The translations under genes were made by a program, and so were the position numbers. A DNA stretch of 35,927 nt from a virus. This document shows positions 5,603-32,215 of this stretch, in pieces (positions within the stretch are counted from its first letter, which is position 1; the number at the start of each line of letters is the position of its first letter). The notes under the pieces are model-generated. The model was not told the DNA's origin, did no database searches, and saw only the letters and a list, made by a program, of their open reading frames with translations. The stretch is from the IMG/VR virus record IMGVR_UViG_3300022911_000012, positions 1 through 35,927 of that record, one strand, 5' to 3'.

Positions 5603-5824
5603 TGGCCTCACACACGCATAGCAATTGCCATCATGGGGTGTGACCATCGACGGTGCCAAAACGTGGGCTGACCTGCGTTTTGTCCATCAAGGAGATCGAC
5701 TCCGGCCCGCTGGCCCAGATAGATCCAGATCGATGTCATAGCAAATGCCATGGCAAATGCTATGGCAAAACACATAGCAAACCCGGTTTTACGTAGTTTG
5801 CCATTCGGTTGAATACATGATCAC

Positions 5825-5854
5825 TGAACGCTCGTTCACCTGAACGTGCGTTCA
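5825..5854. promoter_or_regulatory. Twin palindromic operator-like sites
   Basis: TGAACGCTCGTTCA (5825-5838) and TGAACGTGCGTTCA (5841-5854) are two palindromic 14-mers, each with 6-bp arms, separated by two bases. Their centres are 16 bp apart. This is the layout of a double operator for a dimeric regulator; TGAACG...CGTTCA arms are often seen for TetR-family proteins. No TetR gene was recognised in the window. Confidence 0.6.
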
Positions 5855-6024
5855 GGAAGCCGCGCGATAGCAAGTGCCATCAAAGTGCCCCTGACCTGGT
5901 GTTCCACTCACAGACCGTATAGCAAAACATGGCAAAACTGATGGCAAATGCCATGGCAAATGCTATGGCAAGTGTTATGGCAAACGGATAGCAAACGCAT
6001 GGCAAATCGATAGCAGAAGTAAGA

Positions 6025-12967: not shown

Positions 12968-13090
12968 ATGCAGCAGACGATCGAGCGCAAGGCTACCGAC
13001 AAGAACGCTGGCCGGGAGACCGTGGTCAACGACCCGGCTCACGAGCTGACCTGGGAGCGGGCCGTGGAAATGGCCATCGCTGGCTACTGA
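12968..13090 (+). CDS. Small protein, 40 aa, first gene of array
   Basis: ATG 12968 behind GAGCGAGGAGCGATC. MQQTIERKATDKNAG... is charged at its start and ends with an amphipathic WERAVEMAIAGY helix. It is the first gene after the leader and is followed at once by RNA repeat E1. Function unknown. Confidence 0.75.
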   Translation: MQQTIERKATDKNAGRETVVNDPAHELTWERAVEMAIAGY

Positions 13091-13091
13091 T

Positions 13092-13150
13092 CCTGTGGTT
13101 GAGGTCGAGGCGCGGCGTAAGCCGTGCTTGGACTCCGGCACAGGGCCGGT
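13092..13150 (+). repeat. RNA repeat E1 (class I)
   Basis: P1 strands CCTGTG (13092-13097) and CACAGG (13139-13144); hairpin A arms GCGCGGC/GCCGTGC; hairpin B TCCGGC/GCCGGT, whose loop carries the P1 3' strand. Confidence 0.85.
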
Positions 13151-13400: not shown

Positions 13401-13592
13401 ATGAAGGTTTACCTGGTTGAGGGCGGTTTCAACTACGAGAACTCGACCGTGTTCGGGGTGAAGTCCACTCCGGATAAGGCCGAACGGATGCGAGCCGAGA
13501 TCGAGGCCGAGTCGACCTACGACTGGGTCAGCGTGAGCGAGTTCGAGGTGGACGAGGACGAGCCTGAGGTCAAGTTTGCGGGTGTCACCTGA
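13401..13592 (+). CDS. Hypothetical small protein, 63 aa
   Basis: MKVYLVEGGFNYENSTVFGVKSTPDKAERM... with an acidic C-terminal stretch (SEFEVDEDEPEVKF). The strand-helix-strand pattern (KVYLVEGG, then KAERMRAEIEAE) recalls the short phage family that reports itself as a beta-alpha-beta fold. RBS GAGGCGGGGACGC. RNA repeat E2 follows. Confidence 0.85.
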   Translation: MKVYLVEGGFNYENSTVFGVKSTPDKAERMRAEIEAESTYDWVSVSEFEVDEDEPEVKFAGVT

Positions 13593-13593
13593 T

Positions 13594-13652
13594 CCTGCGG
13601 TTGAGGTCGAGGCGCGGTGCGAACCGTGCCTGGACTCCGGCGCAGGGCCGGA
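13594..13652 (+). repeat. RNA repeat E2 (class I)
   Basis: P1 CCTGCG (13594-13599) / CGCAGG (13641-13646). Hairpin A arms GCGCGGT/ACCGTGC show a compensated T-A in place of the C-G pair of E1. Hairpin B TCCGGC/GCCGGA. Confidence 0.9.
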
Positions 13653-14016: not shown

Positions 14017-14337
14017 ATGGGCGACGCCACGGCGGTCGAGATCATCACGGCGGCGGAACTGATCACGCCGGATGACTACACGACCGAACTGGGCAAGCGC
14101 TGGGCGGCGCACCGCAACGAGTGGGTGACCGTGACCGAGATCCGGCTGGCGCACACCGGCGGCCAGCTGGCGGGCTACATCGTGGCCGGTGACGACAACC
14201 ACGTGTTCGGCATGGCGGAGTGCACCGACGGATCCTCCAAGTCGGTGGCGCACTGCATCCTGGACACGGCGTCGGGCAGGGAGCACATGATCGCCAGTGT
14301 GATCGCTGTCTGGGCTGACAGCTGGGGCGGTAACTGA
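14017..14337 (+). CDS. Hypothetical protein, 106 aa
   Basis: ATG 14017 behind ACGAGGGAGACATC. MGDATAVEIITAAELITPDDY... has a helical start, then alternating strands (EWVTVTEIRLAHTGGQLAGYIVAGDDNHVFGMAEC) and two Cys. Soluble and acidic. Family unknown. Confidence 0.8.
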   Translation: MGDATAVEIITAAELITPDDYTTELGKRWAAHRNEWVTVTEIRLAHTGGQLAGYIVAGDDNHVFGMAECTDGSSKSVAHCILDTASGREHMIASVIAVWADSWGGN

Positions 14338-14338
14338 T

Positions 14339-14397
14339 CCTGCGGGTGAGGTCGAGGCGCGGCGTAGGCCGTGCCTGGACTCCGGCGCAGGGCCGGA
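14339..14397 (+). repeat. RNA repeat E4 (class I)
   Basis: P1 CCTGCG (14339-14344) / CGCAGG (14386-14391); hairpin A GCGCGGC-GTAG-GCCGTGC; hairpin B TCCGGC/GCCGGA. Confidence 0.9.
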
Positions 14398-14414: not shown

Positions 14415-14660
14415 ATGCCGAAGTTCGAGATCCACGCCAACGGGGACCGTCAGGAAACCATCGAGCTGGAGATGCCCAAGATCGGGCTGCTGATCGAGGT
14501 GGTCAGCGCGTTCTGGACGCACGATGTGTTCCGCAACGAGGGTGGCTGCCCGTTCACGGTTGCGGTGGTCAAGCACGACGGCCGAACCGTGGCGTATGGG
14601 TGGCTGGAGCCTGCGGGTTGGATGTGGGACGACATCGACGAGGCTTACGACGAGAGCTGA
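14415..14660 (+). CDS. Hypothetical protein, 81 aa
   Basis: ATG 14415 behind AAGGGGGCGTC. MPKFEIHANGDRQETIELEM... is strand-rich at first, then ends WLEPAGWMWDDIDEAYDES, acidic with three Trp. Soluble. Function unknown. Confidence 0.8.
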   Translation: MPKFEIHANGDRQETIELEMPKIGLLIEVVSAFWTHDVFRNEGGCPFTVAVVKHDGRTVAYGWLEPAGWMWDDIDEAYDES

Positions 14661-14661
14661 T

Positions 14662-14720
14662 CCTGCGGTTGAGGTCGAGGCGCGGCGCTGGCCGTGCCTG
14701 GACTCCGGCGCAGGGCCGGA
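14662..14720 (+). repeat. RNA repeat E5 (class I)
   Basis: P1 CCTGCG (14662-14667) / CGCAGG (14709-14714); hairpin A GCGCGGC-GCTG-GCCGTGC; hairpin B TCCGGC/GCCGGA. Nearly identical to E3. Confidence 0.9.
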
Positions 14721-14738: not shown

Positions 14739-14978
14739 ATGAGCTACCGCGTCGAGGTGCTGGAGCCGTTCACGGAGGCGCCGCTGGGCTTCCTGATGAC
14801 TGAGGACGACACCCAGGTCGCTACCTTCGGCACCCTGGATGATGTCCGGCAGGCCATCGGCGAGTCGATTGCCGCTGGCCGCCCGATGGACTACCTGGTC
14901 GAGGACGAGAGCGGCGAGCATGTCGGCGTGGCCTACGCCGATGGGGAGGTGTGGCACTACGAACTGCCCGAGGACTGA
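14739..14978 (+). CDS. Hypothetical acidic protein, 79 aa
   Basis: ATG 14739 behind GGAAGGTGTGAGC. MSYRVEVLEPFTEAPLGFLMTEDDTQVATFGTLDDVRQAIGES... has the strand-helix layout of small single-domain phage proteins and a strongly acidic tail. Function unknown. Confidence 0.8.
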   Translation: MSYRVEVLEPFTEAPLGFLMTEDDTQVATFGTLDDVRQAIGESIAAGRPMDYLVEDESGEHVGVAYADGEVWHYELPED

Positions 14979-14979
14979 T

Positions 14980-15037
14980 CCTGTGGTTGAGGGTGCGGGC
15001 CGCTACGGCGGCTCGTCGCCTCCGGCACAGGGCCGGA
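14980..15037 (+). repeat. RNA repeat E6 (class I)
   Basis: P1 CCTGTG (14980-14985) / CACAGG (15026-15031); hairpin A changed to GGGCCGC/GCGGCTC with a GAGG/CCTC outer stem; hairpin B TCCGGC/GCCGGA. Confidence 0.9.
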
Positions 15038-15053: not shown

Positions 15054-15308
15054 ATGACCTTCCGAATGATGATCCGTGAGGCTGTCAAGGGTGGCGGCAT
15101 CGAGGAGTATCACCCCGAGGTCAGCGCCAAAGAGATCGACTACTTCGTCACGGTCACGGAGAAGTTCTACGGGGCCTGCCCGCAGTTCTTCGCGGTGACG
15201 ATCATTGACGAGGACACCGACGAACCGGTGCTGTACGGGGCTCGCCAGGAGGGCGACGTGTGGCGCTGGAGCGGGGCGTACTACGCACCACGGCCGAAAG
15301 GCTACTGA
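15054..15308 (+). CDS. Hypothetical protein, 84 aa
   Basis: MTFRMMIREAVKGGGIEEYHPEVSAKEIDYFVTVTEKFYGACPQFFAVTIIDEDTDEPV... is mixed alpha/beta with an aromatic C-terminus (WRWSGAYYAPRPKGY). RBS GAGAGCGAGGGCACG. Function unknown. Confidence 0.8.
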   Translation: MTFRMMIREAVKGGGIEEYHPEVSAKEIDYFVTVTEKFYGACPQFFAVTIIDEDTDEPVLYGARQEGDVWRWSGAYYAPRPKGY

Positions 15309-15309
15309 T

Positions 15310-15368
15310 CCTGCGGTTGAGGTCGAGGCGCGGCGTAGGCCGTGCCTGGACTCCGGCGCAGGGCCGGA
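15310..15368 (+). repeat. RNA repeat E7 (class I)
   Basis: P1 CCTGCG (15310-15315) / CGCAGG (15357-15362); hairpin A GCGCGGC-GTAG-GCCGTGC; hairpin B TCCGGC/GCCGGA. Confidence 0.9.
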
Positions 15369-15384: not shown

Positions 15385-15876
15385 ATGACCAGGATCATCG
15401 ACCAGCGGGTCCGGGACTTCGTCGCCGAGACCGGGCTGGATCTCGTGGCGGTCAGCGAGTACGTCGAGGACGTCGTGACCGGCTACATCGGCACCCTGCT
15501 GTGGAGCGAGTCGTGCAACGGCACGGCGCCGTTGCACGTCTGCGACCACCTCAGTAGGCAAGGTGACGAGGCGGCCGACTGCGACACGAGCTTGGACTCG
15601 CTGGGCTACGCCGAGAACGATCTCGCCGGGGAGGCTTACGACTCGATCCGGGAGGACGTCGCGGACTTCGTCTGCGCCAACTGGGCGGACCTGTACGGCT
15701 CCGACATGGACGCCGGGCAGGCCGGTCACGACTTCCTGCTCACCCGCAACCACCACGGTGCGGGTTTCTGGGACCGGGGGCTCGGCGAGCGTGGCGACAG
15801 GCTCACGGCCAACGCTCACCCGTACGGCGCAACCGACGCCTACGTGGGAGACGACGAGCTGGTCTACGTGAGCTGA
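15385..15876 (+). CDS. Conserved phage protein, 163 aa
   Basis: The C-terminal part (AGHDFLLTRNHHGAGFWDRGLGERGDRLTANAHPYG, about residues 113-148) matches a motif I recall in many actinophage and other phage proteins of unknown role (HDFW.TRNGHGAGFWDR). The His/Asp/Arg residues of this motif look catalytic or nucleotide-binding. The N-terminus is acidic with three Cys. ATG 15385 follows AGTGAGGGCATC. Confidence 0.85.
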   Translation: MTRIIDQRVRDFVAETGLDLVAVSEYVEDVVTGYIGTLLWSESCNGTAPLHVCDHLSRQGDEAADCDTSLDSLGYAENDLAGEAYDSIREDVADFVCANWADLYGSDMDAGQAGHDFLLTRNHHGAGFWDRGLGERGDRLTANAHPYGATDAYVGDDELVYVS

Positions 15877-15878
15877 TC

Positions 15879-15937
15879 GTCCAGATGAGGGTGAGCGCCG
15901 GTTACGCCCGGCGCTTCGCCTCCGGTGGATGGCCGGC
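15879..15937 (+). repeat. RNA repeat E8 (class I, diverged)
   Basis: P1 GTCCA (15879-15883) pairs with TGGAT (15926-15930), a covarying replacement of the usual pair. Hairpin A GCGCCGG/CCGGCGC; hairpin B is shorter (CCGG/CCGG). Confidence 0.75.
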
Positions 15938-16312: not shown

Positions 16313-16510
16313 ATGGCAATCACACAGGACGTACTGGCGGGCAGTGCCGCATACGACGCGGTAGCCCAGACGGAGAGCGTCGAGGAGAAGCGACACCTGC
16401 TCCGGGCGTTCCGGCCGGGCGTGCTGCACTACCTCGCCGATGCGGTCTACGTGGAATGGGAGGGGCTGCGCGAGGAGACCGTGATCAACAACATCCTGAC
16501 CGAACTCTGA
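16313..16510 (+). CDS. Hypothetical protein, 65 aa
   Basis: First gene after promoter 5. MAITQDVLAGSAAYDAVAQTESVEEKRHLLRAF... is helical and soluble, with a C-terminal EETVINNILTEL helix. RBS GAGAGGAACGGGAC. Function unknown. Confidence 0.8.
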   Translation: MAITQDVLAGSAAYDAVAQTESVEEKRHLLRAFRPGVLHYLADAVYVEWEGLREETVINNILTEL

Positions 16511-16511
16511 T

Positions 16512-16569
16512 CCTGTGGTTGAGGGTGCGGGCCGCTACGGCGGCCCGATGCCTCCGGCACAGGGCCGGA
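16512..16569 (+). repeat. RNA repeat E9 (class I)
   Basis: P1 CCTGTG (16512-16517) / CACAGG (16558-16563); hairpin A GGGCCGC/GCGGCCC, a full Watson-Crick version of the G-T pair seen in E6; hairpin B TCCGGC/GCCGGA. Confidence 0.9.
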
Positions 16570-16589: not shown

Positions 16590-16949
16590 GTGAAGCTGCA
16601 CACCGACATCCTGACGTCGATGAACATCGACGAGGCGCTGAACCGAGCCAAGGAGGCGGGCAAGGTCACTCGGGACATCTACTTCGTCCAGAAGAACGGC
16701 GCCGGATCTCGGTCCCGCCGGGCCGGGTACGAGATCCAGCTGGGCACCGACGACAAGACGTCGGGACCGACCAACTCCCGGCGCTTCAAGAACAGCGGCT
16801 GGACCGGCGCCGACACGGTGTACGCGGCGACCTACGACGAGTGGGGATGGTTCATCGCCCAGCTCTTCGAGGTGGACCCCGACGCCATCTTCGGCAACTA
16901 CAAGGGCGTGGAGGACTTCCACGAGCAGACCAAGAACGCGTATCGCTGA
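16590..16949 (+). CDS. Hypothetical protein, 119 aa
   Basis: GTG 16590 behind ACGAGGAGCGACT. MKLHTDILTSMNIDEALNRAKEAGKVTRDIYFVQK... is followed by a strand-rich Gly/Ser section (GYEIQLGTDDKTSGPTNSRRFKNSG) and a YDEWGWFIAQLFEVDPDAIFG segment, a layout I recall from uncharacterised actinophage proteins. Function unknown. Confidence 0.82.
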   Translation: MKLHTDILTSMNIDEALNRAKEAGKVTRDIYFVQKNGAGSRSRRAGYEIQLGTDDKTSGPTNSRRFKNSGWTGADTVYAATYDEWGWFIAQLFEVDPDAIFGNYKGVEDFHEQTKNAYR

Positions 16950-16950
16950 T

Positions 16951-17008
16951 CCTGCGGTTGAGGGTGGGCGCCGGGCAACCGGCGCCATGCCTCCGGCGCA
17001 GGGCCGGA
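16951..17008 (+). repeat. RNA repeat E10 (class I)
   Basis: P1 CCTGCG (16951-16956) / CGCAGG (16997-17002); hairpin A changed to GGCGCCGG/CCGGCGCC; hairpin B TCCGGC/GCCGGA. Confidence 0.9.
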
Positions 17009-17026: not shown

Positions 17027-17407
17027 ATGGGCAGCGTCCTGGACTACTTCGTCCGTCACATCACGCTGGTGCTCGACAACGACGAGGCGACCTACAACCG
17101 GATGACACGGACGGCGATCCGCATCGTCCGCAACAGCGGGGTCACGGTCTCCGAGTGGAAGAAGATGGACAGCGAGGACCGCCGCGACGAGTACGCCATG
17201 AAGATCGGCGAGCGTCTGGTGGAGATCATCGAGGACGAGTACCTCGCCGAGGCGGTCAGTGACGGCACGGTCGGCGCACAGCTGATCAGCGAGGTCATGA
17301 TCACCGGTGACAACGCGTTCGTCTACGAGATCGGCAGTCACTACATCCCCGAAGACGCCGACGTCGTCGACCTGCTTGACGACGAGGACGACGACGACAT
17401 CTTCTGA
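17027..17407 (+). CDS. Hypothetical acidic protein, 126 aa
   Basis: ATG 17027 behind ATGAGGGAGACATC. Helical N-terminus (DYFVRHITLVLDNDEATYNRMTRTAIRIVRNSG), a charged middle, and a strongly acidic tail (VVDLLDDEDDDDIF). The acidic tail could mimic DNA or bind a basic partner; that is speculation. Family unknown. Confidence 0.82.
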   Translation: MGSVLDYFVRHITLVLDNDEATYNRMTRTAIRIVRNSGVTVSEWKKMDSEDRRDEYAMKIGERLVEIIEDEYLAEAVSDGTVGAQLISEVMITGDNAFVYEIGSHYIPEDADVVDLLDDEDDDDIF

Positions 17408-17408
17408 T

Positions 17409-17466
17409 CCTGCGAATGAGGGTGCGGGCCGCTACGGCGGCTCGTCGCCTCCGGCGCAGGGCCGGA
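17409..17466 (+). repeat. RNA repeat E11 (class I)
   Basis: P1 CCTGCG (17409-17414) / CGCAGG (17455-17460); core GAATGAGG; hairpin A GGGCCGC/GCGGCTC; hairpin B TCCGGC/GCCGGA. Confidence 0.9.
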
Positions 17467-17484: not shown

Positions 17485-17769
17485 ATGGCAACCCTTTACG
17501 GCGTGATTTACACGGCCGACGACGAGAGCACCACCGAGCACTCGGCCCACATCACCAAAGATGACGCGGCACGGGCTGGCGCTGAGCTGGTCAAAGCCGA
17601 GGTCGAGCGGATCAGGTCGTGGGACCCGTCAGCGCCTGACCTGCCCGAGGTGTGGGCGGGCGACTGGGACCTGATCGACTGGATGCGTTCGCACTACGAG
17701 GTGCGGCTGGAGATCGAGCCGGTCGAGGTCTCCGAAGATGTGATCCGGGCGCTGATTGCCCGGCGCTGA
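17485..17769 (+). CDS. Hypothetical protein, 94 aa
   Basis: ATG 17485 behind ACGAGGGAGTGGCG. MATLYGVIYTADDESTTEHSAHITKDDAARAGAELVKAEVERIRSW... is acidic, with a beta-alpha start and a Trp-rich middle (EVWAGDWDLIDWM). Function unknown. Confidence 0.8.
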   Translation: MATLYGVIYTADDESTTEHSAHITKDDAARAGAELVKAEVERIRSWDPSAPDLPEVWAGDWDLIDWMRSHYEVRLEIEPVEVSEDVIRALIARR

Positions 17770-17770
17770 T

Positions 17771-17828
17771 CCTGCGGATGAGGGTGCGGGCCGCTACGGC
17801 GGCTCGTCGCCTCCGGCGCAGGGCCGGA
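17771..17828 (+). repeat. RNA repeat E12 (class I)
   Basis: P1 CCTGCG (17771-17776) / CGCAGG (17817-17822); core GGATGAGG; hairpins as in E11. Confidence 0.9.
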
Positions 17829-17846: not shown

Positions 17847-18215
17847 ATGACCATGCCCCACATCAAGGTCTACCGCGAGTGGACCATCTGGGAGAACGAG
17901 GGCGACGACGAGCCCACCGTGGTCAAGCAGGAGGAAGACACCTACCCCTGCTTCCCCGATGCGATCGACCACCAGGACGGCCTGACGGTCGTCGACCTGG
18001 CGGTGGCGGTCCTGGAGGGCAAGCTCTACGTGACCGAGACCAGCAACCACCCGTGGTCGCTGGGGAGCTGGTACAGCGCCACTCCTGGCCCCGATCACAG
18101 CTGGGGCATGAACGGCGCTGACGAGAGCCTGACGGCGCACCTGGAGGGCTTCACGCCGGAAGAGGAGACGACGATCTTCGAGACGGTGAGCAAGCACGTG
18201 CCGTCGATGCGCTGA
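17847..18215 (+). CDS. Hypothetical protein, 122 aa
   Basis: ATG 17847 behind ACGAGGGAGACACC. MTMPHIKVYREWTIWENEGDDEPTVVKQEED..., an acidic protein with an aromatic loop (NHPWSLGSWYSATPGPDHSWG) and a helical C-terminus. Family unknown. Confidence 0.82.
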   Translation: MTMPHIKVYREWTIWENEGDDEPTVVKQEEDTYPCFPDAIDHQDGLTVVDLAVAVLEGKLYVTETSNHPWSLGSWYSATPGPDHSWGMNGADESLTAHLEGFTPEEETTIFETVSKHVPSMR

Positions 18216-18275
18216 CCGTACGGATGAGGGTGGCTGCCAGCACGCTGGCAGCTCGCCTCCGGCGTACGGGCCGGA
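18216..18275 (+). repeat. RNA repeat E13 (class I, CGTACG type)
   Basis: P1 CCGTAC (18216-18221) / GTACGG (18264-18269); hairpin A GCTGCCAGC/GCTGGCAGC, 9 bp and unrelated in sequence to earlier copies; hairpin B TCCGGC/GCCGGA. Confidence 0.92.
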
Positions 18276-18293
18276 CTGACGAAGGGAAACACC

Positions 18294-18629
18294 ATGAGCC
18301 TGGACTGGGACACCACCGAGTGCGTCGAGGACGTCACCGGCGAGGAGCACTGGAAGATCACCGAGGCCATCATCTGGGGCACGATGGCCGTGGACATGGG
18401 CCGGATCACCGAGGCGAACTACAAGAAGTTCGCCAAGCGGATCGACATGGTGCAGGGCCTGTACGGCGCCCTGTGCCAGGTCTTCGAGGACGGGAAGATC
18501 GTGGACCGCCCGGTCACCGAGGAAGACATCCGCCGGCGCATCGGTCTGAGGACCAATGTGACCACGACCAGCGACACCAAGTTCAACAAGCGGATGGCCG
18601 ATGCGCTTCAGCGCAGGGGCCGGGCCTGA
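18294..18629 (+). CDS. Hypothetical protein, 111 aa
   Basis: ATG 18294 behind GACGAAGGGAAACACC. MSLDWDTTECVEDVTGEEHWKITEAIIWGTMAVDMGRITEANYKKFAKRID... has a long amphipathic helical middle (TEAIIWGTMAVDMGRI) and a basic C-terminus, close to families I recall from actinophages as unknowns. Soluble. Confidence 0.83.
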   Translation: MSLDWDTTECVEDVTGEEHWKITEAIIWGTMAVDMGRITEANYKKFAKRIDMVQGLYGALCQVFEDGKIVDRPVTEEDIRRRIGLRTNVTTTSDTKFNKRMADALQRRGRA

Positions 18630-18689
18630 CCGTACGGATGAGGGTGGGCGCCAGCACGCTGGCGCCGCGCCTCCGGCGTACGGGCCGGA
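18630..18689 (+). repeat. RNA repeat E14 (class I, CGTACG type)
   Basis: P1 CCGTAC (18630-18635) / GTACGG (18678-18683); hairpin A GGCGCCAGC/GCTGGCGCC, compensated relative to E13; hairpin B TCCGGC/GCCGGA. Confidence 0.92.
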
Positions 18690-18707
18690 ACGACGAAAGG
18701 AAGCAAG

Positions 18708-18995
18708 ATGCAGCGAGACAACCTGGCCATCGCGGTGTCCTACGAGGGCGAGCGGGAGGTTGACAGCGGCGGTGTGAGCAAGCTGGCCGAGCTGTACCGC
18801 CAGATGCAGTACGGCGCGGACATCCGGATACTGAGCGTGGCCGCGCTGGACGAGGGCGGGGTGCTGGTGCCGGTGAAGCACGAGATGCTGCCCTACACCT
18901 TCGACGACAACTCGATGGCCTACCCGGTCGTCAAGGTGACCATGCCGGACGGCCTGGCCGAGTGGGCGACCTTTTCGCTGGACGGCCGCGCCTAA
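18708..18995 (+). CDS. Hypothetical protein, 95 aa
   Basis: ATG 18708 behind AAAGGAAGCAAG. MQRDNLAIAVSYEGEREVDSGGVSKLAELYRQMQYGADIRILSVAALDEGGVLV... is mixed alpha/beta, then strands up to a TFSLDGRA end. It is the last gene before promoter 6. Function unknown. Confidence 0.8.
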   Translation: MQRDNLAIAVSYEGEREVDSGGVSKLAELYRQMQYGADIRILSVAALDEGGVLVPVKHEMLPYTFDDNSMAYPVVKVTMPDGLAEWATFSLDGRA

Positions 18996-18996
18996 T

Positions 18997-19052
18997 CGTG
19001 CGCTGATGGTGGCGCCCGGCTTCGGCCGGGCGTTGCCACCGTCGCATGACGG
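18997..19052 (+). repeat. RNA repeat E15 (class II)
   Basis: P1 CGTGC / GCATG (loop 19044-19047, one G-T pair); hairpin A GGTGGC...GCCACC enclosing GCCCGGC/GCCGGGC; hairpin B CCGTC/GACGG. It lies directly before a promoter, so here it ends a transcription unit. Confidence 0.9.
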
Positions 19053-19058
19053 ACACAC

Positions 19059-19100
19059 TGTCACGACCAACTTGACAGTGGGGTTGAGATGCACTACGTT
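19059..19100 (+). promoter_or_regulatory. Rightward promoter 6 with operator half-sites
   Basis: TTGACA (19072-19077), 17-bp spacer, TACGTT (19095-19100); TGTCA at 19059. The start-region string TCTCAGCAGGGAAAAC is shared with promoter 7. Confidence 0.88.
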
Positions 19101-19136
19101 GGGTCTCAGCAGGGAAAACGACACACGGAGGTCACC

Positions 19137-19550
19137 ATGGGGAAGCTGCTCGCATCCAAGTTCCTGGAGCAGGTCATTCACCAGATGCCGGAGGACGTAC
19201 TGGCCAACTACGGCAACTGCAGCGTGCCGGAGTCACACGAAAGCCCTGGTGCTCGGTTCCTCAACGGAGCACGTCAGGGCTTCCTGCAGATCCTGGATCA
19301 GTACAACGGCGAGAGCCGGCAGGAGACCCAGGACAAGGTCTGGGGCGTGGCCGCGGAATGCCCGGCTGGAGTCATCAGCCTGCTTTGGGAGCAGTTCGCC
19401 GACCTGCACGCCTACCGCGAGGACATCGAAATGGAGATGCGCTCGCTGAACGACATGGCGCACATCGCGTTGCAGCAGATCGCCGAGCGCGTCATCCAGG
19501 AACTGCTCAACGAGTGGTTCGACCAGCTGGAAGCGCCCGAATACTACTGA
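19137..19550 (+). CDS. Hypothetical protein, 137 aa
   Basis: ATG 19137 behind ACGGAGGTCACC. Largely helical (LLASKFLEQVIHQMPEDVLANY; EQFADLHAYREDIEMEM; IALQQIAERVIQELLNEWFDQLE), probably a small helical bundle. First gene after promoter 6. Function unknown. Confidence 0.83.
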   Translation: MGKLLASKFLEQVIHQMPEDVLANYGNCSVPESHESPGARFLNGARQGFLQILDQYNGESRQETQDKVWGVAAECPAGVISLLWEQFADLHAYREDIEMEMRSLNDMAHIALQQIAERVIQELLNEWFDQLEAPEYY

Positions 19551-19606
19551 CGTACGGATGATGGTGCGGCCCGGGTGACCGGGCCGATGCCACCGCTGTA
19601 CGGCGG
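19551..19606 (+). repeat. RNA repeat E16 (class II, CGTAC type)
   Basis: P1 CGTAC (19551-19555) / GTACG (19598-19602); hairpin A CGGCCCGG/CCGGGCCG; hairpin B CCGCT/GGCGG with one G-T pair. Confidence 0.88.
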
Positions 19607-19628
19607 AACGATCGAGAGTGAGGCAGGC

Positions 19629-19922
19629 ATGACAACCTCTTACGTGCTGACGGTTCGGCACCCCGACTACGGCAACGAGTACACGGTCGACGGCGACGTG
19701 CATGTCGTCGACATCGACCTGGGCAACGGGTTCTTCGTGCGACCCGGTGACTACGAGACCGCAATGGATTTCGCGCTCTCTGTCGACAGGCTGTCGGACG
19801 TGCCGATCACCTCCCCGGTCTTCTCGGCCGGTCTGGCCATTTTCAGGGAGGCGCTGAGGGACTGGGACAACGTGCTGCCGATCATCGACGAGTACGAGCA
19901 GGAGCGCCGCCGCGTCGCCTGA
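19629..19922 (+). CDS. Hypothetical protein, 97 aa
   Basis: ATG 19629 behind GAGTGAGGCAGGC. MTTSYVLTVRHPDYGNEYTVDGDVHVVDIDLGNGFFVRPGDYETAM... is strand-rich then helical, acidic, with a charged tail (DEYEQERRRVA). Function unknown. Confidence 0.8.
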   Translation: MTTSYVLTVRHPDYGNEYTVDGDVHVVDIDLGNGFFVRPGDYETAMDFALSVDRLSDVPITSPVFSAGLAIFREALRDWDNVLPIIDEYEQERRRVA

Positions 19923-19923
19923 T

Positions 19924-19979
19924 CCGTGCGCTGATGGTGCGGCCCGGTCATCCGGGCCGCCGCCACCGCCGCACGGCGG
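19924..19979 (+). repeat. RNA repeat E17 (class II)
   Basis: P1 CCGTGC (19924-19929) / GCACGG (19971-19976), fully Watson-Crick; hairpin A GCGGCCCGG/CCGGGCCGC; hairpin B CCGCC/GGCGG. Confidence 0.92.
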
Positions 19980-19998
19980 AATGATCGAGGGAGCAACC

Positions 19999-20448
19999 AT
20001 GGTCAGGTACTGCGAGGACAAGCTGGTCGACGAGCACGGTGACAAGCAGGAGGACATCACCTGCCCCGGCCACCTCAGCAAGTTCGACGACTGCGTCCAG
20101 GAGGCGCTGTGGGAGCTGGTGCTGGACAACGGCGGCGAGCTGCAGACGGGGACCGACGACTTCGAGGGCACCTTCACGCTCTTCAACTTCGCCGACGAAG
20201 AGGCGGTGGAGATCAACCCGGATGGTGTCGATGCCCGCTGGGTGATGGTGCCGGAGGGCTACTACATCCTGCAGACCACCAGCGGCGGGTTCGTCTACAC
20301 GCTGAAGTACGAGACCTACCGCGAGGCGCGGGAGGCGTACGAGGTGGCCGACGACCGCTACAGCCGCTGGGAGAAGGGGTGCGAGCAGACCGGGCACGAG
20401 GTCTGCGAGACCGAAGACGAATGCCAGCTGGGTGGAATCCCCGCCTGA
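19999..20448 (+). CDS. Hypothetical protein, 149 aa
   Basis: I chose ATG 19999 behind GAGGGAGCAACC; the earlier ATG 19981 lies before that RBS. Acidic, strand-rich (TFTLFNFADEEAVEINPDGV, WVMVPEGYYILQTTSGGFVYTLKY), with Cys near both ends (C5, C22, C32; CEQTGHEVCETEDEC). May bind metal. Family unknown. Confidence 0.83.
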   Translation: MVRYCEDKLVDEHGDKQEDITCPGHLSKFDDCVQEALWELVLDNGGELQTGTDDFEGTFTLFNFADEEAVEINPDGVDARWVMVPEGYYILQTTSGGFVYTLKYETYREAREAYEVADDRYSRWEKGCEQTGHEVCETEDECQLGGIPA

Positions 20449-20478
20449 CGCCGGCAAGGATGCGAGGAGGAGAACGCG

Positions 20479-20667
20479 ATGCCTGAGGATCACTACGACC
20501 TGCTGCACCGCACGCTGGGCGGCGGGCTGAACGATCGCCAGCACGGCGCGGTGTACGGGCTGGCCTACCAGTTCGGCCACAGCGCCGGGGAGGACGAGGT
20601 CAGGGTCTACTACGAGGACCTGGCGGACATGGCCCGAGCGGTCATCGACGCCAGCGACGAGCGCTGA
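20479..20667 (+). CDS. Hypothetical acidic protein, 62 aa
   Basis: ATG 20479 behind GAGGAGGAGAACGCG; no RNA repeat separates it from the previous gene. MPEDHYDLLHRTLGGGLNDRQHGAVYGLAYQFGHSAGEDEV... is helical. Its last codons (GAG CGC) form the 5' strand of E18, so the gene and the RNA element overlap. Confidence 0.8.
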   Translation: MPEDHYDLLHRTLGGGLNDRQHGAVYGLAYQFGHSAGEDEVRVYYEDLADMARAVIDASDER

Positions 20668-20713
20668 TGGTGCGGCCCGGCATGTCCGGGCCGACGCCAC
20701 CGCCGCTCGGCGG
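20658..20713 (+). repeat. RNA repeat E18 (class II, CGAGC type)
   Basis: P1 CGAGC (20658-20662, inside the preceding coding end) / GCTCG (20705-20709); hairpin A CGGCCCGG/CCGGGCCG; hairpin B CCGCC/GGCGG. Confidence 0.92.
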
Positions 20714-20735
20714 AACGAGACACAGGGAGCACCGA

Positions 20736-21311
20736 ATGCGGACTGTCACGGCAGATGATTTCGACGTCTACACCCTGGACGAGCTGGAGCCGGAAGCACG
20801 GCGCCGGGCCATCGGCGAGGTCGCTGAGAAGCTGGGCAGCACCTGGTGGGACAGCAACGACAACGACGACATCAGCGACGTCATGCGCTACACCCTGGCC
20901 AACAAGTTCGGCACGCCTGGTCACGGTGACTTCGGCGTCGGCGACTTCCCCGGCATCACAGGGGTCACGCTGCAGAGCTGGGACCTGGACCGGGGCAACT
21001 ACATCGGGCTGACGGGTGTCCTGACCCGCCAGAACGCCCCCGCCCTGCCCTGGACGGACGGCGTCGAGCAAGTGGCACTGCGAGAGGGCAACGAGTACAC
21101 GTCGATCGACGTCGAGTTCGACGACACGCTGGCCGAGCCGGACATGGAGCTGGTCAACGACCAGATGACCGAGGCGATCACCGACGCGATGCACGAGGCG
21201 CTGCGCGACGGCCGGGCCGAGATGGAATACAAGACCGGTGAGGAGTACGCCGCCGGTTTCATCGAGGGCAACGGCCTGGAGTTCCTGGAGGACGGCACGC
21301 AGTACCCCTGA
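20736..21311 (+). CDS. Hypothetical phage protein, 191 aa
   Basis: The start resembles a widespread phage family with the motif Y.FDELS.EA...A (here YTLDELEPEARRRAI) followed by WWDS..., then a Gly-rich strand region (FGTPGHGDFGVGDFPGITGVTLQSW) and an acidic C-terminal helix. ATG 20736 has CAGGGAGCACCGA upstream. Members have no proven function. Confidence 0.85.
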   Translation: MRTVTADDFDVYTLDELEPEARRRAIGEVAEKLGSTWWDSNDNDDISDVMRYTLANKFGTPGHGDFGVGDFPGITGVTLQSWDLDRGNYIGLTGVLTRQNAPALPWTDGVEQVALREGNEYTSIDVEFDDTLAEPDMELVNDQMTEAITDAMHEALRDGRAEMEYKTGEEYAAGFIEGNGLEFLEDGTQYP

Positions 21312-21312
21312 T

Positions 21313-21368
21313 CGAGCACTGATGGTGGCGCCCGGCTCCGGCCGGGCGTTGCCACCGCCGCTCGGCGG
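21313..21368 (+). repeat. RNA repeat E19 (class II, CGAGC type)
   Basis: P1 CGAGC (21313-21317) / GCTCG (21360-21364); hairpin A GGTGGC...GCCACC with GCCCGGC/GCCGGGC; hairpin B CCGCC/GGCGG. Confidence 0.92.
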
Positions 21369-21389
21369 AACGGGACACAAGGAGTGGAC

Positions 21390-21683
21390 ATGGCAGGCAT
21401 GAAGCAGCTGATGACGGCGATCGAGGAGATGGCGGAGACGCTGGCCAACAGCGACACCGCGCTGGCACATCTGACGTGCCGCGAGGTGGGCTCAATCGTG
21501 GACGTGCTGGTGTTGTCGGGCCTGGAGCAGCACGTCGGTGGTGTCCTCATGGGGCACGCCTACGGCGACAGCGGCACGGGCGACACGCACCACGATCTGT
21601 ACCAGTCAGACGAGCGAGGTAACGAGGACGAGCTGGTGGACGGTTACATCGAGGCCGCGAAGCAGCGACTCGGCGTGCGCTGA
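21390..21683 (+). CDS. Hypothetical protein, 97 aa
   Basis: ATG 21390 sits five bases after AAGGAG; GTG 21384 overlaps that RBS and is less likely. Helical N-terminus (KQLMTAIEEMAETLANSDTALAHL), then VGSIVDVLVLSGLEQHVGGVLMGHAYGDSGTGD. I recall similar helical proteins as actinophage unknowns. Its last codons enter E20. Confidence 0.83.
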   Translation: MAGMKQLMTAIEEMAETLANSDTALAHLTCREVGSIVDVLVLSGLEQHVGGVLMGHAYGDSGTGDTHHDLYQSDERGNEDELVDGYIEAAKQRLGVR

Positions 21684-21729
21684 TGGTGCGGCCCGGCATG
21701 TCCGGGCCGACGCCACCGCCGCACGGCGG
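21674..21729 (+). repeat. RNA repeat E20 (class II)
   Basis: P1 CGTGC (21674-21678, within the coding end) / GCACG (21721-21725); hairpin A CGGCCCGG/CCGGGCCG; hairpin B CCGCC/GGCGG. Confidence 0.92.
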
Positions 21730-21755
21730 AATCCCGAGCAGGAAGTGAGACCACC

Positions 21756-22118
21756 ATGAAGCAGGAACTCAAAGGTCAGGCCCGCCTGGACCCGAACGCT
21801 GCCGAGTACGAAGAGGCCATCGGGGGCGGGCTCAGCGCCGAGAGCACCGTGGCGCTGGGATGGCCCACGGAGGACATCGACCCCAGCGACACCCTGGCCG
21901 AGGCGATCGAGCGGTTGTGCAACTACAAGGCCGGGATCGCAGCGCGGGCGCTGGCCGAGTACGCCCGGCTCACCGGCGGGCAGGGCGATTCCGTCCGGAC
22001 CAACGCGGGTGACTTCGTCACGGACTTGATGCACCTGCTCGACGCCCTGGAGGTCGAGTTCTACGAGATCGCCGACTACGGCTACGACAACCACGCGGCA
22101 GAGCAGACCGAGCAGTGA
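21756..22118 (+). CDS. Hypothetical protein, 120 aa
   Basis: ATG 21756 behind AGGAAGTGAGACCACC. Acidic and helical with LAEAIERLCNYKAGIAARALAEYARLTG and TDLMHLLDALEVEFYEIA helices. Family unknown. The 3' end overlaps the first strand of E21. Confidence 0.83.
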   Translation: MKQELKGQARLDPNAAEYEEAIGGGLSAESTVALGWPTEDIDPSDTLAEAIERLCNYKAGIAARALAEYARLTGGQGDSVRTNAGDFVTDLMHLLDALEVEFYEIADYGYDNHAAEQTEQ

Positions 22119-22164
22119 TGGTGGCGGCCGGGCTCCCCGGCCGCACGCCACCGCCGCTCGGCGG
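22109..22164 (+). repeat. RNA repeat E21 (class II, CGAGC type)
   Basis: P1 CGAGC (22109-22113, within the coding end) / GCTCG (22156-22160); hairpin A GCGGCCGGG/CCCGGCCGC; hairpin B CCGCC/GGCGG. Confidence 0.92.
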
Positions 22165-22188
22165 AACGAACGCTACGAACGGAGCGAC

Positions 22189-22575
22189 ATGGACATCAAG
22201 ACCCTGAGCGACAGCGACCTCTACGCCCTGATGACCGACATCCAGAACGAGCTGCGGCACCGGACCGAGGCGCAGGCCGCAACCTCCCTGATCGGCGTGC
22301 TGCAGGCCCACCAGTACACGGCTGCCTTCGCCCCGCTGGCCAAGGCGATCAGCTTCGGCGTCAAGGAGTACGACAACGGGTTCTTCTACGACTCGGCGCA
22401 GGCCGAGCTGACGCTCGGCAGCGGAACGAGGGTGCAGGTCGACCTGTCGGACATCAGCGAAGTCGAAGAGCTGCTCACCGACCTGAGCGACTCCGAACGG
22501 CGCGAGTACGGCTCGCTGTTCGAGACAAACAGCGTTCGGGTCGACCTGCGTACCGGCGAGGTCGTGCACCGCTGA
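22189..22575 (+). CDS. Hypothetical protein, 128 aa
   Basis: ATG 22189 behind ACGGAGCGAC. Starts MDIKTLSDSDLYALMTDIQNELRHRTEAQAA, an amphipathic helix of coiled-coil type, then strands (FFYDSAQAELTLGSGTRVQVDLSDI) and a charged helix. Function unknown. Confidence 0.83.
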   Translation: MDIKTLSDSDLYALMTDIQNELRHRTEAQAATSLIGVLQAHQYTAAFAPLAKAISFGVKEYDNGFFYDSAQAELTLGSGTRVQVDLSDISEVEELLTDLSDSERREYGSLFETNSVRVDLRTGEVVHR

Positions 22576-22632
22576 CGTGCACCGATGGTGCGGCCCGGCT
22601 CCGGCCGGGCCGCCGCCACCGCTGCATGGCGG
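22576..22632 (+). repeat. RNA repeat E22 (class II)
   Basis: P1 CGTGC (22576-22580) / GCATG (loop 22624-22627), one G-T pair; hairpin A GCGGCCCGGC/GCCGGGCCGC; hairpin B CCGCT/GGCGG. Confidence 0.88.
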
Positions 22633-22652
22633 AAGAGACCAGGGAGAATGCG

Positions 22653-23030: not shown

Positions 23031-23441
23031 ATGAGCACTCCCCCTGCGGAGCCGGAGCCGGAACGCACGATCAGCGAGATCGTGTACGGCAAGGTCGAAG
23101 GCATCGACGCCACCGAGGATGAGCAGGAGCGCCTGAAGGACTTCCTGCGCACCAACCCGACGCTGCGCCTGTCGAACCTGATCCGGGTGTGGTTCCCCGA
23201 CCTGGCCGCCGAGGTGGCTGCTGAGGCGGACAACTACGACACCAGCGGCGACCCGAACTACACGGTTCGCGGCGAGGCCGTAGGCGAGACTCAGCAGGCG
23301 GAGGGACTGAACCGGGGTGACGCCTGGGTCGCCCGGTTCGTCGGCGACTACATCGGCCAGGCACTGCGCGAGGTGGATGCGCGAGAACTGGCGAACGAGC
23401 ACTATCGCCTGCGGATGCAGGAAGGGCAGCTGCAGGGCTGA
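23031..23441 (+). CDS. Hypothetical protein, 136 aa
   Basis: ATG 23031 behind ATAGGAGCCAGGC. Pro/Glu-rich start, then helices (EDEQERLKDFLRTNPTLRLSNLIRVWFPDLAAEVAAEA) and QALREVDARELANEHYRLRMQ. Acidic. It ends the unit before E23 and promoter 7. Function unknown. Confidence 0.8.
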   Translation: MSTPPAEPEPERTISEIVYGKVEGIDATEDEQERLKDFLRTNPTLRLSNLIRVWFPDLAAEVAAEADNYDTSGDPNYTVRGEAVGETQQAEGLNRGDAWVARFVGDYIGQALREVDARELANEHYRLRMQEGQLQG

Positions 23442-23499
23442 CGTGCGCTGACGGGACCGCCCAGCGAGGGGGCTGGGCGGTCCCACCGTCGCACGACGG
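23442..23499 (+). repeat. RNA repeat E23 (class II)
   Basis: P1 CGTGC (23442-23446) / GCACG (23491-23495); hairpin A a 13-bp perfect stem, GGGACCGCCCAGC/GCTGGGCGGTCCC; hairpin B CCGTC/GACGG. Lies directly before promoter 7. Confidence 0.92.
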
Positions 23500-23505
23500 A
23501 CCTAG

Positions 23506-23581: not shown

Positions 23582-23758
23582 ATGATCTACAACGTGCAGC
23601 ACAGCGTCGTGCACCTCGTCGAGGCAGAGTCGGCAGAGGCGGCCATCGCGGCATTGCGAGACAGCTTGCTGCGAGCCGGGTTCGAGCCCTTCACCGACGA
23701 AACCACCGACGCCTTCGAGTCCGTCGACCAGGACGCCACCGCCGATTCGCTGCCCTGA
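23582..23758 (+). CDS. Hypothetical acidic protein, 58 aa
   Basis: ATG 23582 behind CAAGGAGGAACAA. MIYNVQHSVVHLVEAESAEAAIAALRDSLLRAG... is a small beta-alpha protein ending in Asp/Thr-rich residues. First gene after promoter 7. Function unknown. Confidence 0.82.
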   Translation: MIYNVQHSVVHLVEAESAEAAIAALRDSLLRAGFEPFTDETTDAFESVDQDATADSLP

Positions 23759-23759
23759 C

Positions 23760-23815
23760 CGAGCACCGATGGTGCGGCCCGGCACGTCCGGGCCGACGCC
23801 ACCGCCGCTCGGCGG
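23760..23815 (+). repeat. RNA repeat E24 (class II, CGAGC type)
   Basis: P1 CGAGC (23760-23764) / GCTCG (23807-23811); hairpin A CGGCCCGG/CCGGGCCG; hairpin B CCGCC/GGCGG. Confidence 0.92.
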
Positions 23816-23837
23816 AACCCCAAACGAACGGAGCAAC

Positions 23838-24290
23838 ATGAACGACATCGACACCCGGCCCGGCCTGTGGCTGTTGACCAGCCAGCGCCGCCCGCACATC
23901 GTCATCGACACCAGGACCGGCCAGCCGGTCAGCAAGGGCGACGAGATCACATCGTTCCGTGGCGAGAAGAGCACACTGCAGTCCGTCTCCCGCGGCCCGC
24001 AGTACAACGGCACCTCGAAAGTCACCAACGCCAAGGGCTGGGAGTATTACGACTCGGTGTACGAGCTGCTCGTCCTGCCCCTGATCGAGGCCGGCGAGCT
24101 GTACCGTCTCGACATCTACAACCGGGAAGACATGATCCGGAAGTACCACTTCGTCCAGATCACCGACATCGCCGAGGACCGTACGGTCACGGCGTACGAG
24201 GTGGACGACGACGGCGGGCCGACGTCCAACGAGATCACCTTCCGCTGGGACGACGTCTACATCGCGGACCTGTACGCAGACGTGTGCTGA
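23838..24290 (+). CDS. Hypothetical protein, 150 aa
   Basis: ATG 23838 behind ACGGAGCAAC; an in-frame extension through E24 is an artefact. Strand-rich throughout, with GDEITSFRGEKSTLQSVSRGPQYNGTSKV, a pattern I recall from small actinophage beta proteins with SRGP.YNGT. Function unknown. Last codons enter E25. Confidence 0.85.
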   Translation: MNDIDTRPGLWLLTSQRRPHIVIDTRTGQPVSKGDEITSFRGEKSTLQSVSRGPQYNGTSKVTNAKGWEYYDSVYELLVLPLIEAGELYRLDIYNREDMIRKYHFVQITDIAEDRTVTAYEVDDDGGPTSNEITFRWDDVYIADLYADVC

Positions 24291-24336
24291 TGGTGGCGGC
24301 CGGGCTCCCCGGCCGCACGCCACCGCCACACGGCGG
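24281..24336 (+). repeat. RNA repeat E25 (class II, ACACG type)
   Basis: P1 CGTGT (24281-24285) / ACACG (24328-24332), a further covarying pair; hairpin A GCGGCCGGG/CCCGGCCGC; hairpin B CCGCC/GGCGG. Confidence 0.92.
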
Positions 24337-24363
24337 AACCTACGAGCGAGAGTGAGACCCCCT

Positions 24364-24632: not shown

Positions 24633-24650
24633 GAGTTCACCGCAAGGGAG

Positions 24651-24698
24651 ATGGTGGCCGCCGGTTACGACCGGCGGCGCGCCACCGCCGTGCGGCGG
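24651..24698 (+). repeat. RNA repeat E26 (class II, in 5' leader)
   Basis: Hairpin A GGTGGC...GCCACC with GCCGGT/ACCGGC and hairpin B CCGCC-GTGC-GGCGG are intact, but the P1 5' strand is degenerate. It lies in the leader just after promoter 8, not after a gene. Confidence 0.7.
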
Positions 24699-24730
24699 AG
24701 GGAAAACCCCTTAAACGAAGGAGATCCACC

Positions 24731-24940
24731 ATGAACGTCTACGCCGTGAGCTTCAAGGGCCGCTCGACCCGCCGCGCCGATGGTGCACAGGGCCGCGAGA
24801 CCCGCACCATCGAGGCCCTGGACATCCACGACGCCCGCTCACTGGCCAGCGAGCTGGCCGCCGCCGGCCTGAAGCTGGACGGGGTGGTGTGCGACGAGGT
24901 GAACGTGGCCAACGTCGTCAAGGTCAAGGTCAAGTACTGA
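24731..24940 (+). CDS. Small basic protein, 69 aa
   Basis: ATG 24731 behind CGAAGGAGATCCACC. MNVYAVSFKGRSTRRADGAQGRETRTIEALDIHDARSLASELAAAGLKLDGVV... is basic early, with a beta-alpha-beta layout. First gene of promoter 8. Family not recognised. Confidence 0.8.
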   Translation: MNVYAVSFKGRSTRRADGAQGRETRTIEALDIHDARSLASELAAAGLKLDGVVCDEVNVANVVKVKVKY

Positions 24941-24941
24941 T

Positions 24942-24997
24942 CGTGCGCTGATGGTGGCGCCCGGCCCCGGCCGGGCGTTGCCACCGCCGCACGGCGG
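24942..24997 (+). repeat. RNA repeat E27 (class II)
   Basis: P1 CGTGC (24942-24946) / GCACG (24989-24993); hairpin A GGTGGC...GCCACC with GCCCGGC/GCCGGGC; hairpin B CCGCC/GGCGG. Confidence 0.92.
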
Positions 24998-25016
24998 AGA
25001 AAACACAGGAGGAGCG

Positions 25017-25418: not shown

Positions 25419-26002
25419 ACAAGGTCGCCATCACCGACCCGTCCGTGACCGTGATCTACGGGGTCACGGAGGACGACAACCCGCTCGACGCAGCGATGCG
25501 CATGATCGACGAGGCCAAGGTTCGCCCGGCGCACGACCGGCCCGGCTACTTTCACAACCAAGACCCCGGCGAGCACATCAACGTGCACACCCATCACGCG
25601 GACTCGCTGCCCGAGCAGTGGATGGAGATGGCCCCGCTCGGCGTGCAGAAGGCCGGCGACGTGGGCGGCGACGCACAGGTCAGCGAGGCGTTCAGTCGGC
25701 GCTGGGTGATGCGCCGGCGCATCGGCGACTGGGCGGTCTTCACGGCCACCTTCTACGTCGCGCTGGTGCCCCCGAGCGCCGGGGCTGACCAGCCTCGCGT
25801 GGTCGAGGTCATGGAGGACTACGAGGTCGCCGAAGACCTGCACGACCTGGACGGCTCGCAGACCTTCGCCGAGACGCGATACCGCGGCCTGGTGGGCGAG
25901 CCGACCGAGGAGAACGCCCGGCTGCTCGCAGAGCAGATGAACGCAGGGAGCGTCCAGTGGACGGGCTCCGAGTTCTACGGGCACTTCATCCCCCTGCGCT
26001 GA
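25415..26002 (+). CDS. Hypothetical protein, 195 aa
   Basis: ATGA-coupled to the previous gene. Acidic, strand-rich, His-containing (HINVHTHHADSLPEQW around residues 54-70), with WVMRRRIGDWAVFTATFYVALVP. The His cluster could bind metal. Family unknown. Confidence 0.83.
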   Translation: MNKVAITDPSVTVIYGVTEDDNPLDAAMRMIDEAKVRPAHDRPGYFHNQDPGEHINVHTHHADSLPEQWMEMAPLGVQKAGDVGGDAQVSEAFSRRWVMRRRIGDWAVFTATFYVALVPPSAGADQPRVVEVMEDYEVAEDLHDLDGSQTFAETRYRGLVGEPTEENARLLAEQMNAGSVQWTGSEFYGHFIPLR

Positions 26003-26049
26003 TGGTGCGGCCCGGCTCCGGCCGGGCCGTCGCCACCGTCGCATGACGG
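25994..26049 (+). repeat. RNA repeat E28 (class II, weak P1)
   Basis: CTGC (25994-25997, in the coding end) against loop GCAT gives only three good P1 pairs; hairpin A CGGCCCGGC/GCCGGGCCG and hairpin B CCGTC/GACGG are intact. Confidence 0.75.
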
Positions 26050-26066
26050 ATACCGATGGGAGAAAG

Positions 26067-27132: not shown

Positions 27133-27414
27133 ATGACCCAGCAGAACGCCCCGTACTTCCCCTCCAACAAGCGTGGCGGGCACGCCACCGCGACCGTCGA
27201 AGAGATGTCCCAGTGGGTCCTCGACGCGGTCAGCAACGACAACGTCATCCGGTTCGTCACCGACCACGACCTGGACCTCAGGTCCATCGAGGAAATCGGC
27301 GAGCTGCAGGACGACCCGGACAACTGGACGCCGGGGCACGCCGAGATGGCGCGCTGCACGCTGCTCACGCTTTCGAGCGGGCAGCAGTTCAAGGTCACCA
27401 TCCAGGAACTCTGA
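27133..27414 (+). CDS. Hypothetical protein, 93 aa
   Basis: ATG 27133 behind GCAGGAGGAATC. Acidic, with WVLDAVSNDNVIRFVTDHDLDLRSIEEIGELQDD and TLLTLSSGQQFKVTIQEL. Last gene before E30 and promoter 9. Function unknown. Confidence 0.83.
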   Translation: MTQQNAPYFPSNKRGGHATATVEEMSQWVLDAVSNDNVIRFVTDHDLDLRSIEEIGELQDDPDNWTPGHAEMARCTLLTLSSGQQFKVTIQEL

Positions 27415-27416
27415 CC

Positions 27417-27477
27417 CCGTACGGATGAGGGTGCGGGCCGCCTCGTGCGGCCCGTCGCCCGCGGCGTACGGCCGTGG
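27417..27477 (+). repeat. RNA repeat E30 (class I, CGTACG type)
   Basis: P1 CCGTAC (27417-27422) / GTACGG (27466-27471); hairpin A GGGCCGC/GCGGCCC; hairpin B CCGCGGC/GCCGTGG, a 7-bp stem with a compensating G-T. Directly precedes promoter 9. Confidence 0.9.
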
Positions 27478-32145: not shown

Positions 32146-32201
32146 CGTGCGCTGATGGTCGCAGCCGGGCCTGCCGGCTGCGTGCCACCGTCGCATGGCG
32201 G
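32146..32201 (+). repeat. RNA repeat E31 (class II, isolated)
   Basis: P1 CGTGC (32146-32150) / GCATG (loop 32193-32196), one G-T pair; hairpin A GCAGCCGG/CCGGCTGC; hairpin B CCGTC/GGCGG. Lies about 4.7 kb from the main array. Confidence 0.88.
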
Positions 32202-32215
32202 AGAGATGAGGAGTC

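Follow-up and report, generated by a model that had tools for sequence, protein, structure and literature searches.

An intergenic RNA element, predicted to fold as a pseudoknot, repeated between the small genes of an actinophage

Known intergenic elements and the copy at 13590-13652

Two kinds of intergenic phage elements and two regulatory pseudoknots are the closest described relatives of the structure reported here. In cluster K mycobacteriophages, the ESAS/SAS elements are intergenic repeats near the starts of many small phage genes; each ESAS is an imperfect inverted repeat of 17 bp linked with a start sequence of 13 bp, and the authors found little support for RNA pairing by it (PMC3203893). 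By position the ESAS are the nearest known system, but the present element differs from them by its strong RNA covariation. Moreover, the 13-bp SAS (GGGATAGGAGCCC) had no match within 2 mismatches on the + strand of the window (the whole 35,927-nt stretch of DNA analysed, an actinophage-type viral record); the - strand has a single match, with 2 mismatches, at position 6541, clear of the element copies. The PeSL (Arbiol 2010; Comeau 2014, as cited in PMC4503421), found in T4-type phages, consist of a promoter plus a stem-loop terminator, and as intergenic structured cassettes bounding phage gene shuffling they are the nearest known system in that respect. The present element differs from them in that it is followed by a promoter in just 3 of 30 copies, lacks a terminator and has a pseudoknot as its predicted fold; neither ESAS nor PeSL is a pseudoknot. 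Bacterial and phage pseudoknots acting on expression are found in the timP mRNA (PMC11228461) and in the T4 gene 32 leader (PMC3014915), but these are single 5' leader elements, whereas the present one is a repeated unit placed after stop codons.

The studied copy reads, from 13590 to 13652, TGA-T-CCTGCG-GTTGA-(hairpin A)-CCGG-CGCAGG-G-CCGG-A, and its parts are as follows.

13590-13592, + strand: stop codon TGA, ending the upstream gene 13401-13592 (sequence reading and gene calls)
13594-13599, + strand: 5' strand of P1, CCTGCG (covariation); a U-G pair by T13593 is possible
13600-13604, + strand: linker GTTGA from P1 to hairpin A, its GA end nearly invariant
13605-13636, + strand: hairpin A, with a lower helix, a variable upper stem and a GCGA loop (fold and covariation)
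13637-13640, + strand: 5' arm of hairpin B, CCGG, abutting hairpin A
13641-13646, + strand: 3' strand of P1, CGCAGG, forming the B loop; P1 and B share C13641
13648-13651, + strand: 3' arm of B, CCGG; A13652 could pair with T13636
13653-13674, + strand: purine-rich spacer with the Shine-Dalgarno-like GGCGAGGAG and the ATG of the next gene at 13672

The initial annotation had proposed that P1 and hairpin B cross. This is borne out, in that the loop of B is the 3' strand of P1 and the same architecture is repeated 30 times in the window. It had also assigned the last C of the B 5' arm to both helices as a feature of class I. The base does fit either helix, as C13641 can pair with G13599 in P1 or with G13647 as a fifth B pair, but class I is not special in this, since the C faces a G on both sides in 57 of the 82 anchored copies.

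Copies in the window and in related phages

A repeat search provided the first copies, five near-identical ones around 13590-13652, and a covariance model that carries no pseudoknot later yielded 30, all on the + strand, with scores of 34-71 bits. They lie almost always between consecutive genes, at the positions listed here.

13088-13150, + strand: copy, 34 bits
13590-13652, + strand: studied copy, 45 bits
13936-13998, + strand: copy (covariance model)
14335-14397, + strand: copy (covariance model)
14658-14720, + strand: copy (covariance model)
14976-15037, + strand: copy, P1 CCTGTG/CACAGG
15306-15368, + strand: copy (covariance model)
15874-15937, + strand: copy, P1 CGTCCA/TGGATG; the shared base, T, faces A
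16508-16569, + strand: copy, P1 CCTGTG/CACAGG; bounds a cassette in relatives
16947-17008, + strand: copy (covariance model)
17405-17466, + strand: copy (covariance model)
17767-17828, + strand: copy (covariance model)
18213-18275, + strand: copy, P1 CCGTACG/CGTACGG
18627-18689, + strand: copy, P1 CCGTACG/CGTACGG
18993-19054, + strand: copy at an operon end, then promoter 19072
19548-19608, + strand: copy, P1 CGTACG/TGTACG
19921-19981, + strand: copy, P1 CGTGCG/CGCACG, B CCGC/GCGG
20655-20715, + strand: copy, P1 CGAGCG/CGCTCG, with the stop codon inside its linker; bounds a cassette in relative L009
21309-21370, + strand: copy, P1 CGAGC/GCTCG
21671-21731, + strand: copy (covariance model)
22105-22166, + strand: copy (covariance model)
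22573-22634, + strand: copy, P1 CGTGCA/TGCATG
23439-23501, + strand: copy at an operon end, then promoter 23519
23756-23817, + strand: copy (covariance model)
24278-24338, + strand: copy, P1 CGTGTG/CACACG
24637-24700, + strand: copy, P1 CCGCA/TGCGG
24938-24999, + strand: copy, cassette boundary in relatives
25989-26051, + strand: copy (covariance model)
27414-27476, + strand: copy with divergent B (CCGCGG/CCGTGG) and 7-bp P1, then promoter 27497
32143-32203, + strand: copy (covariance model)

P1 and B alone were rejected as a specific signature, as a free descriptor without hairpin A gave 114 groups on the + strand versus 77-84 in base shuffles. Elsewhere in the window, the otherwise gene-free stretch 5726-5997 holds two clusters of 12-bp near-tandem repeats of the ATGGCAAATGCT type, candidates for replication iterons or for a partition site.

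Further copies were present in three other phage-type sequences: about 40 at 43.1-64.6 kb of the 95-kb viral record IMG/VR 2930248008_000005, about 26 on a single 39.7-kb contig of Micromonospora maritima DSM 45782, and about 20 in a third, more diverged element of the Micromonosporaceae genome G334. Terminase, portal and head protease genes of the 95-kb record have relatives in the M. maritima and G334 elements and, judged by these sequences, the three are related phages. Matches were found in 2 of 160 Micromonospora genomes, in 6 of 355 from the family and in 2 of 396 phylum-wide (one of them the M. maritima genome itself), which argues that the element is rare and phage-borne. Rfam 15 gave no family above the gathering threshold in the window and, with a permissive threshold in 18150-22200, chance-level matches alone (E 0.37-0.46). 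BLAST of single elements against phage and plasmid collections likewise returned only partial, chance-level matches, and no convincing copy was seen in Streptomyces phage Samy, the nearest named phage by terminase, or in Gordonia phage Mollymur (45.0-90.7 kb). Four diverged copies at G334 locus L060 (13711-13773, 14345-14406, 14626-14687 and 14998-15059) apparently have TCGC/GCGA as B and retain the upstream pairing of the loop with ACCGC; they may represent an older branch of the family. Two other stretches of the window had likenesses of their own. Positions 15723-15838, part of a small gene, are 72-83% identical to DNA of Gordonia phages otherwise unrelated to the window phage, and 85% identical over 59 nt to a Methylobacterium aquaticum plasmid. 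A small protein encoded at 20736-21311 is common to the window, the 95-kb phage and the M. maritima element (40-45% identity) and matches PHROG 5162, a family without assigned function.

Comparison with close relatives showed three genes inserted or deleted as whole units, with both ends exactly on element copies (16507-16569, 20655-20715 and 24937-24999; compared loci L009, L013, L014, L015 and L017). The alignment blocks ended and resumed at 20713/20657, 24998/24942 and 16568/16507, as if gene plus element had been exchanged as one unit, and homologous recombination between element copies is enough to explain this pattern.

Pairing of P1, A and B

We analysed covariation in P1 with an alignment of 117 copies (116 distinct rows) built on a covariance-model structure that excludes P1. 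Of the P1 cells, 93.8% were paired versus 81.2 +/- 0.7% after shuffling, and there were 61 double changes versus 12.9 +/- 3.0, counts that come from related copies, so that the events are not independent. Sliding the P1 columns by one brought the pairing down to 8-12%. When each loop was scored against its own upstream strand the value was 5.77, more than 11 standard deviations above the 4.49 +/- 0.11 obtained with loops swapped within the same phage. The P1 types include CCTGCG/CGCAGG, CCGTACG/CGTACGG, CGTCCA/TGGATG, CGAGCG/CGCTCG, CGTGTG/CACACG, CGTCCG/CGGACG and CCGCTCG/CGAGCGG, and the arms of B also covary (CCGC/GCGG, CCGG/CCGG, CCTC/GAGG, CCCG/CGGG, CCGT/ACGG, CCAC/GTGG and CCTG/CAGG), although their pair counts in the covariance alignment are lowered by 7-nt-loop copies being out of register. 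Hairpin A has the lower helix NGGUG/YGCCN, with U-A, C-G, G-U or G-C as last pair, and since this helix stops where B starts, A and B are not competitors. The compensatory variation in P1, A and B indicates that all three helices are real, and agrees with the earlier claim that both crossing helices are conserved. A hammerhead-like reading of CUGAUGG was discarded, this sequence being missing from class I and class II copies.

The dimensions of the B loop bear on how P1 and B can coexist. After a B stem of 4-5 bp, the loop measures 6-7 nt in 84 of 93 copies (6 nt in 50, 7 nt in 34), P1 fills it exactly in 63 of the 93, and at least 5 P1 pairs plus at least 4 B pairs can form without a shared base in 83 of them. 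Extended to their maximum, P1 and B compete for 2-3 nt in 71 of 86 copies, so that one or two junction pairs are truly contested. The linker after the P1 3' strand is 0-1 nt long, and a classic H-type fold would have to bridge, by A-form geometry, a gap of about 22-30 Å on the shallow-groove face of P1 (6-7 bp), which takes about 3 nt or more for 6 bp. Thus, the proposal that a simple pseudoknot would be tight was correct, and we reject this fold because its third loop is too short, even though the crossing helices are present. On the same geometry, a 6-7 bp helix that fills a loop leaves a deep-groove closure gap of about 10 Å. Deep-groove closure of fully paired 6-7 nt loops is known from the kissing hairpins TAR/TAR* and RNA I/RNA II. 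With these kissing loops and with loop-closed pseudoknots the element shares a whole 6-7 nt loop that is paired, here throughout with P1, and the lack of a linker; the likeness is one of geometry, as the partner of the B loop is an upstream single strand of the same RNA, beyond hairpin A. The 4-5 nt of the P1-A linker must span about 28 Å or more, which is tight in A-form terms. Pairs between this linker and the B 5' arm scored 1.67 versus 1.65 +/- 0.05 when permuted, and this lack of covariation indicates that conservation is not directed at a closed rod of P1 and A.

We consider each element very probably a compact pseudoknot in which P1 forms on the whole B loop with a kissing-like closure and coexists with B, hairpin A being placed between the P1 5' strand and B. 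Loop length, exact filling by P1, compatible helices and deep-groove geometry make one pseudoknot with a breathing junction the most likely reading, over a switch in which a P1-A rod alternates with an A+B hairpin according to the order of transcription or to a ribosome at the stop codon. We regard such a switch as improbable, but several results speak for it. P1 was able to form before B in 83 of 83 copies (prefix folding, nested structures only), and B was left in 69 of 83 folds when the P1 5' strand was blocked, as by a ribosome at the stop. In nested minimum-free-energy folds, which by construction hold P1 or B but never both, the two states differ by only a few kcal/mol: in the bare element the P1 state lay about 4 kcal/mol below the B-only state, contradicting our initial expectation that B-only would be the more stable, and the split was 53 to 30 with 18 nt of flank. 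Furthermore, the maximal helices share the 2-3 nt mentioned above, a few G334 copies can extend B at the expense of P1 (e.g. CCGTCGAGCGGTTCGACGG), and the timP mRNA offers the precedent of a two-state pseudoknot (PMC11228461). Nevertheless, P1 and B free of shared bases in 83 of 93 copies, the exact loop match in 63, the linker facing B without rod-closing covariation, the lack of a terminator and a ribosome-binding site outside both helices all weigh against alternation. The tight linker had been taken to suggest alternative, attenuator-like states, which finds no support in an element that can accommodate both helices in 83 of 93 copies and has no U-tract; nor does conservation of both helices by itself imply that there are two states. 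As copies in other phages of Micromonospora-like bacteria differ in sequence and yet retain the two crossing helices, the element has the look of a novel structured RNA, a knot more than an either-or switch.

Gene context and possible roles

Using gene calls made within this analysis, we found the upstream stop codon 0-1 nt before P1 in 63 of 82 called copies and inside the linker in another 12 (75 of 82 in total), and the next start codon a median 18 nt downstream of B. Gene gaps with an element are mostly 64-85 nt long, about 77 nt, and the element fills them. This section of the window has promoter-like sites at 16247, 19072, 23519 and 27497, all sigma70-like (TTGAC-N-TANNNT); the last three overlap a palindrome, TGTCA-N8/9-TGACA, that is likely a repressor operator. 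No element lies between any of the four promoters and its first gene, and one lies directly upstream of three of them (19072, 23519 and 27497), closing the preceding operon; the gene ending at 16227, before the other promoter, has none. The presence of operon-end copies and the absence of any from promoter to first gene indicate that the element belongs to the gene end more than to the next start. No terminator U-tract follows B (T content 11.5%, longest T run 3), and no ribosome-binding site is sequestered in P1 or B, the purine-rich spacer being outside both helices. Readthrough or frameshifting was dismissed on the position of the stop codon, which abuts the knot or sits in it with no spacer.

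From the observed pairing, covariation and positions relative to stop, start and promoter, we infer a role of the element as a post-stop RNA barrier, or 3' shield, carried by each gene; we propose this role tentatively, as one possibility, and the coexisting-helix pseudoknot combined with a post-stop barrier as the best explanation at hand, if with some reserve. The terminating ribosome would cover the P1 5' strand and keep P1 open and, upon its departure, P1 would snap onto the B loop, so that the knot seals the 3' end of the cistron. The closed knot could then block 3'-to-5' exonucleases after cleavage in the open purine-rich spacer, and keep spent ribosomes from drifting to the next start site, and each gene of a long operon would become its own stable, separately translated unit. 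A plain barrier would not need as much conservation as is seen in the GA of the linker and in the lower helix GGUG/YGCC, which hint at a specific contact, and against a purely 3' function there is the fairly constant spacing to the next start codon, which such a function does not require.

Another reading is a bridge for translation, in which the knot folds away some 60 nt and brings the stop near the next start for reinitiation, or a ribosome standby site: in all the phages the stop is at P1 and some 18 nt separate B from the start, the element takes up most gaps between genes of the cluster, and initiation of timP translation requires a pseudoknot (PMC11228461). We find this unlikely, as three copies end operons and are followed by a promoter and not directly by a gene, a purine-rich ribosome-binding region of its own precedes every downstream gene, and native coupling fails beyond about 38 nt, the distance at which termination-reinitiation at native E. 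coli gene pairs was nearly abolished (PMC10666635), so that simple coupling across a gap of about 77 nt is improbable. The element could instead be the binding site of a phage or host protein exerting joint control of all the small-gene operons. The unpaired GA and the GGUG/YGCC helix are conserved in all families, dozens of copies occur within one genome section, and a pseudoknot known to be bound by protein exists in the T4 gene 32 leader (PMC3014915), but the loop, stem and P1 sequences vary freely and no shared RNA-binding protein was found among the proteins common to the phages, which makes this quite unlikely. The three gene insertions bounded exactly by copies in close relatives raise the question of whether the repeats act at the DNA level, as homology or recombination sites for gene swapping, with the RNA fold a side effect. 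Recombination between any repeats would yield an identical pattern, the integron attC core boxes GTTRRRY/RYYYAAC occurred in 0 of 30 copies, and compensation in P1, A and B needs selection on folded RNA or single-stranded DNA; we thus judge it highly unlikely. Finally, the stable GC-rich hairpins, and the three copies just before promoters, recall transcription terminators or attenuators between genes, a reading that is scarcely credible given the T content and T runs after B reported above and the fact that a terminator after nearly every operon gene would starve the distal ones.

In phage operons, numerous small genes usually lie close together. Here, several related phages spend about 77 nt on structured RNA at one junction after another, 20-40 times in each genome. 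It is conceivable, though rather doubtful, that they hold a previously unknown type of phage gene cassette, each gene having at its 3' end a pseudoknot that the terminating ribosome opens and that closes behind it, so that a long operon would be a series of units both separately protected and swappable. With well over 100 natural variants in which P1 and B have changed together, the question of one fold or a switch is directly testable and, if the post-stop barrier is true, the element would be a portable gene-separating part for actinobacterial expression constructs.
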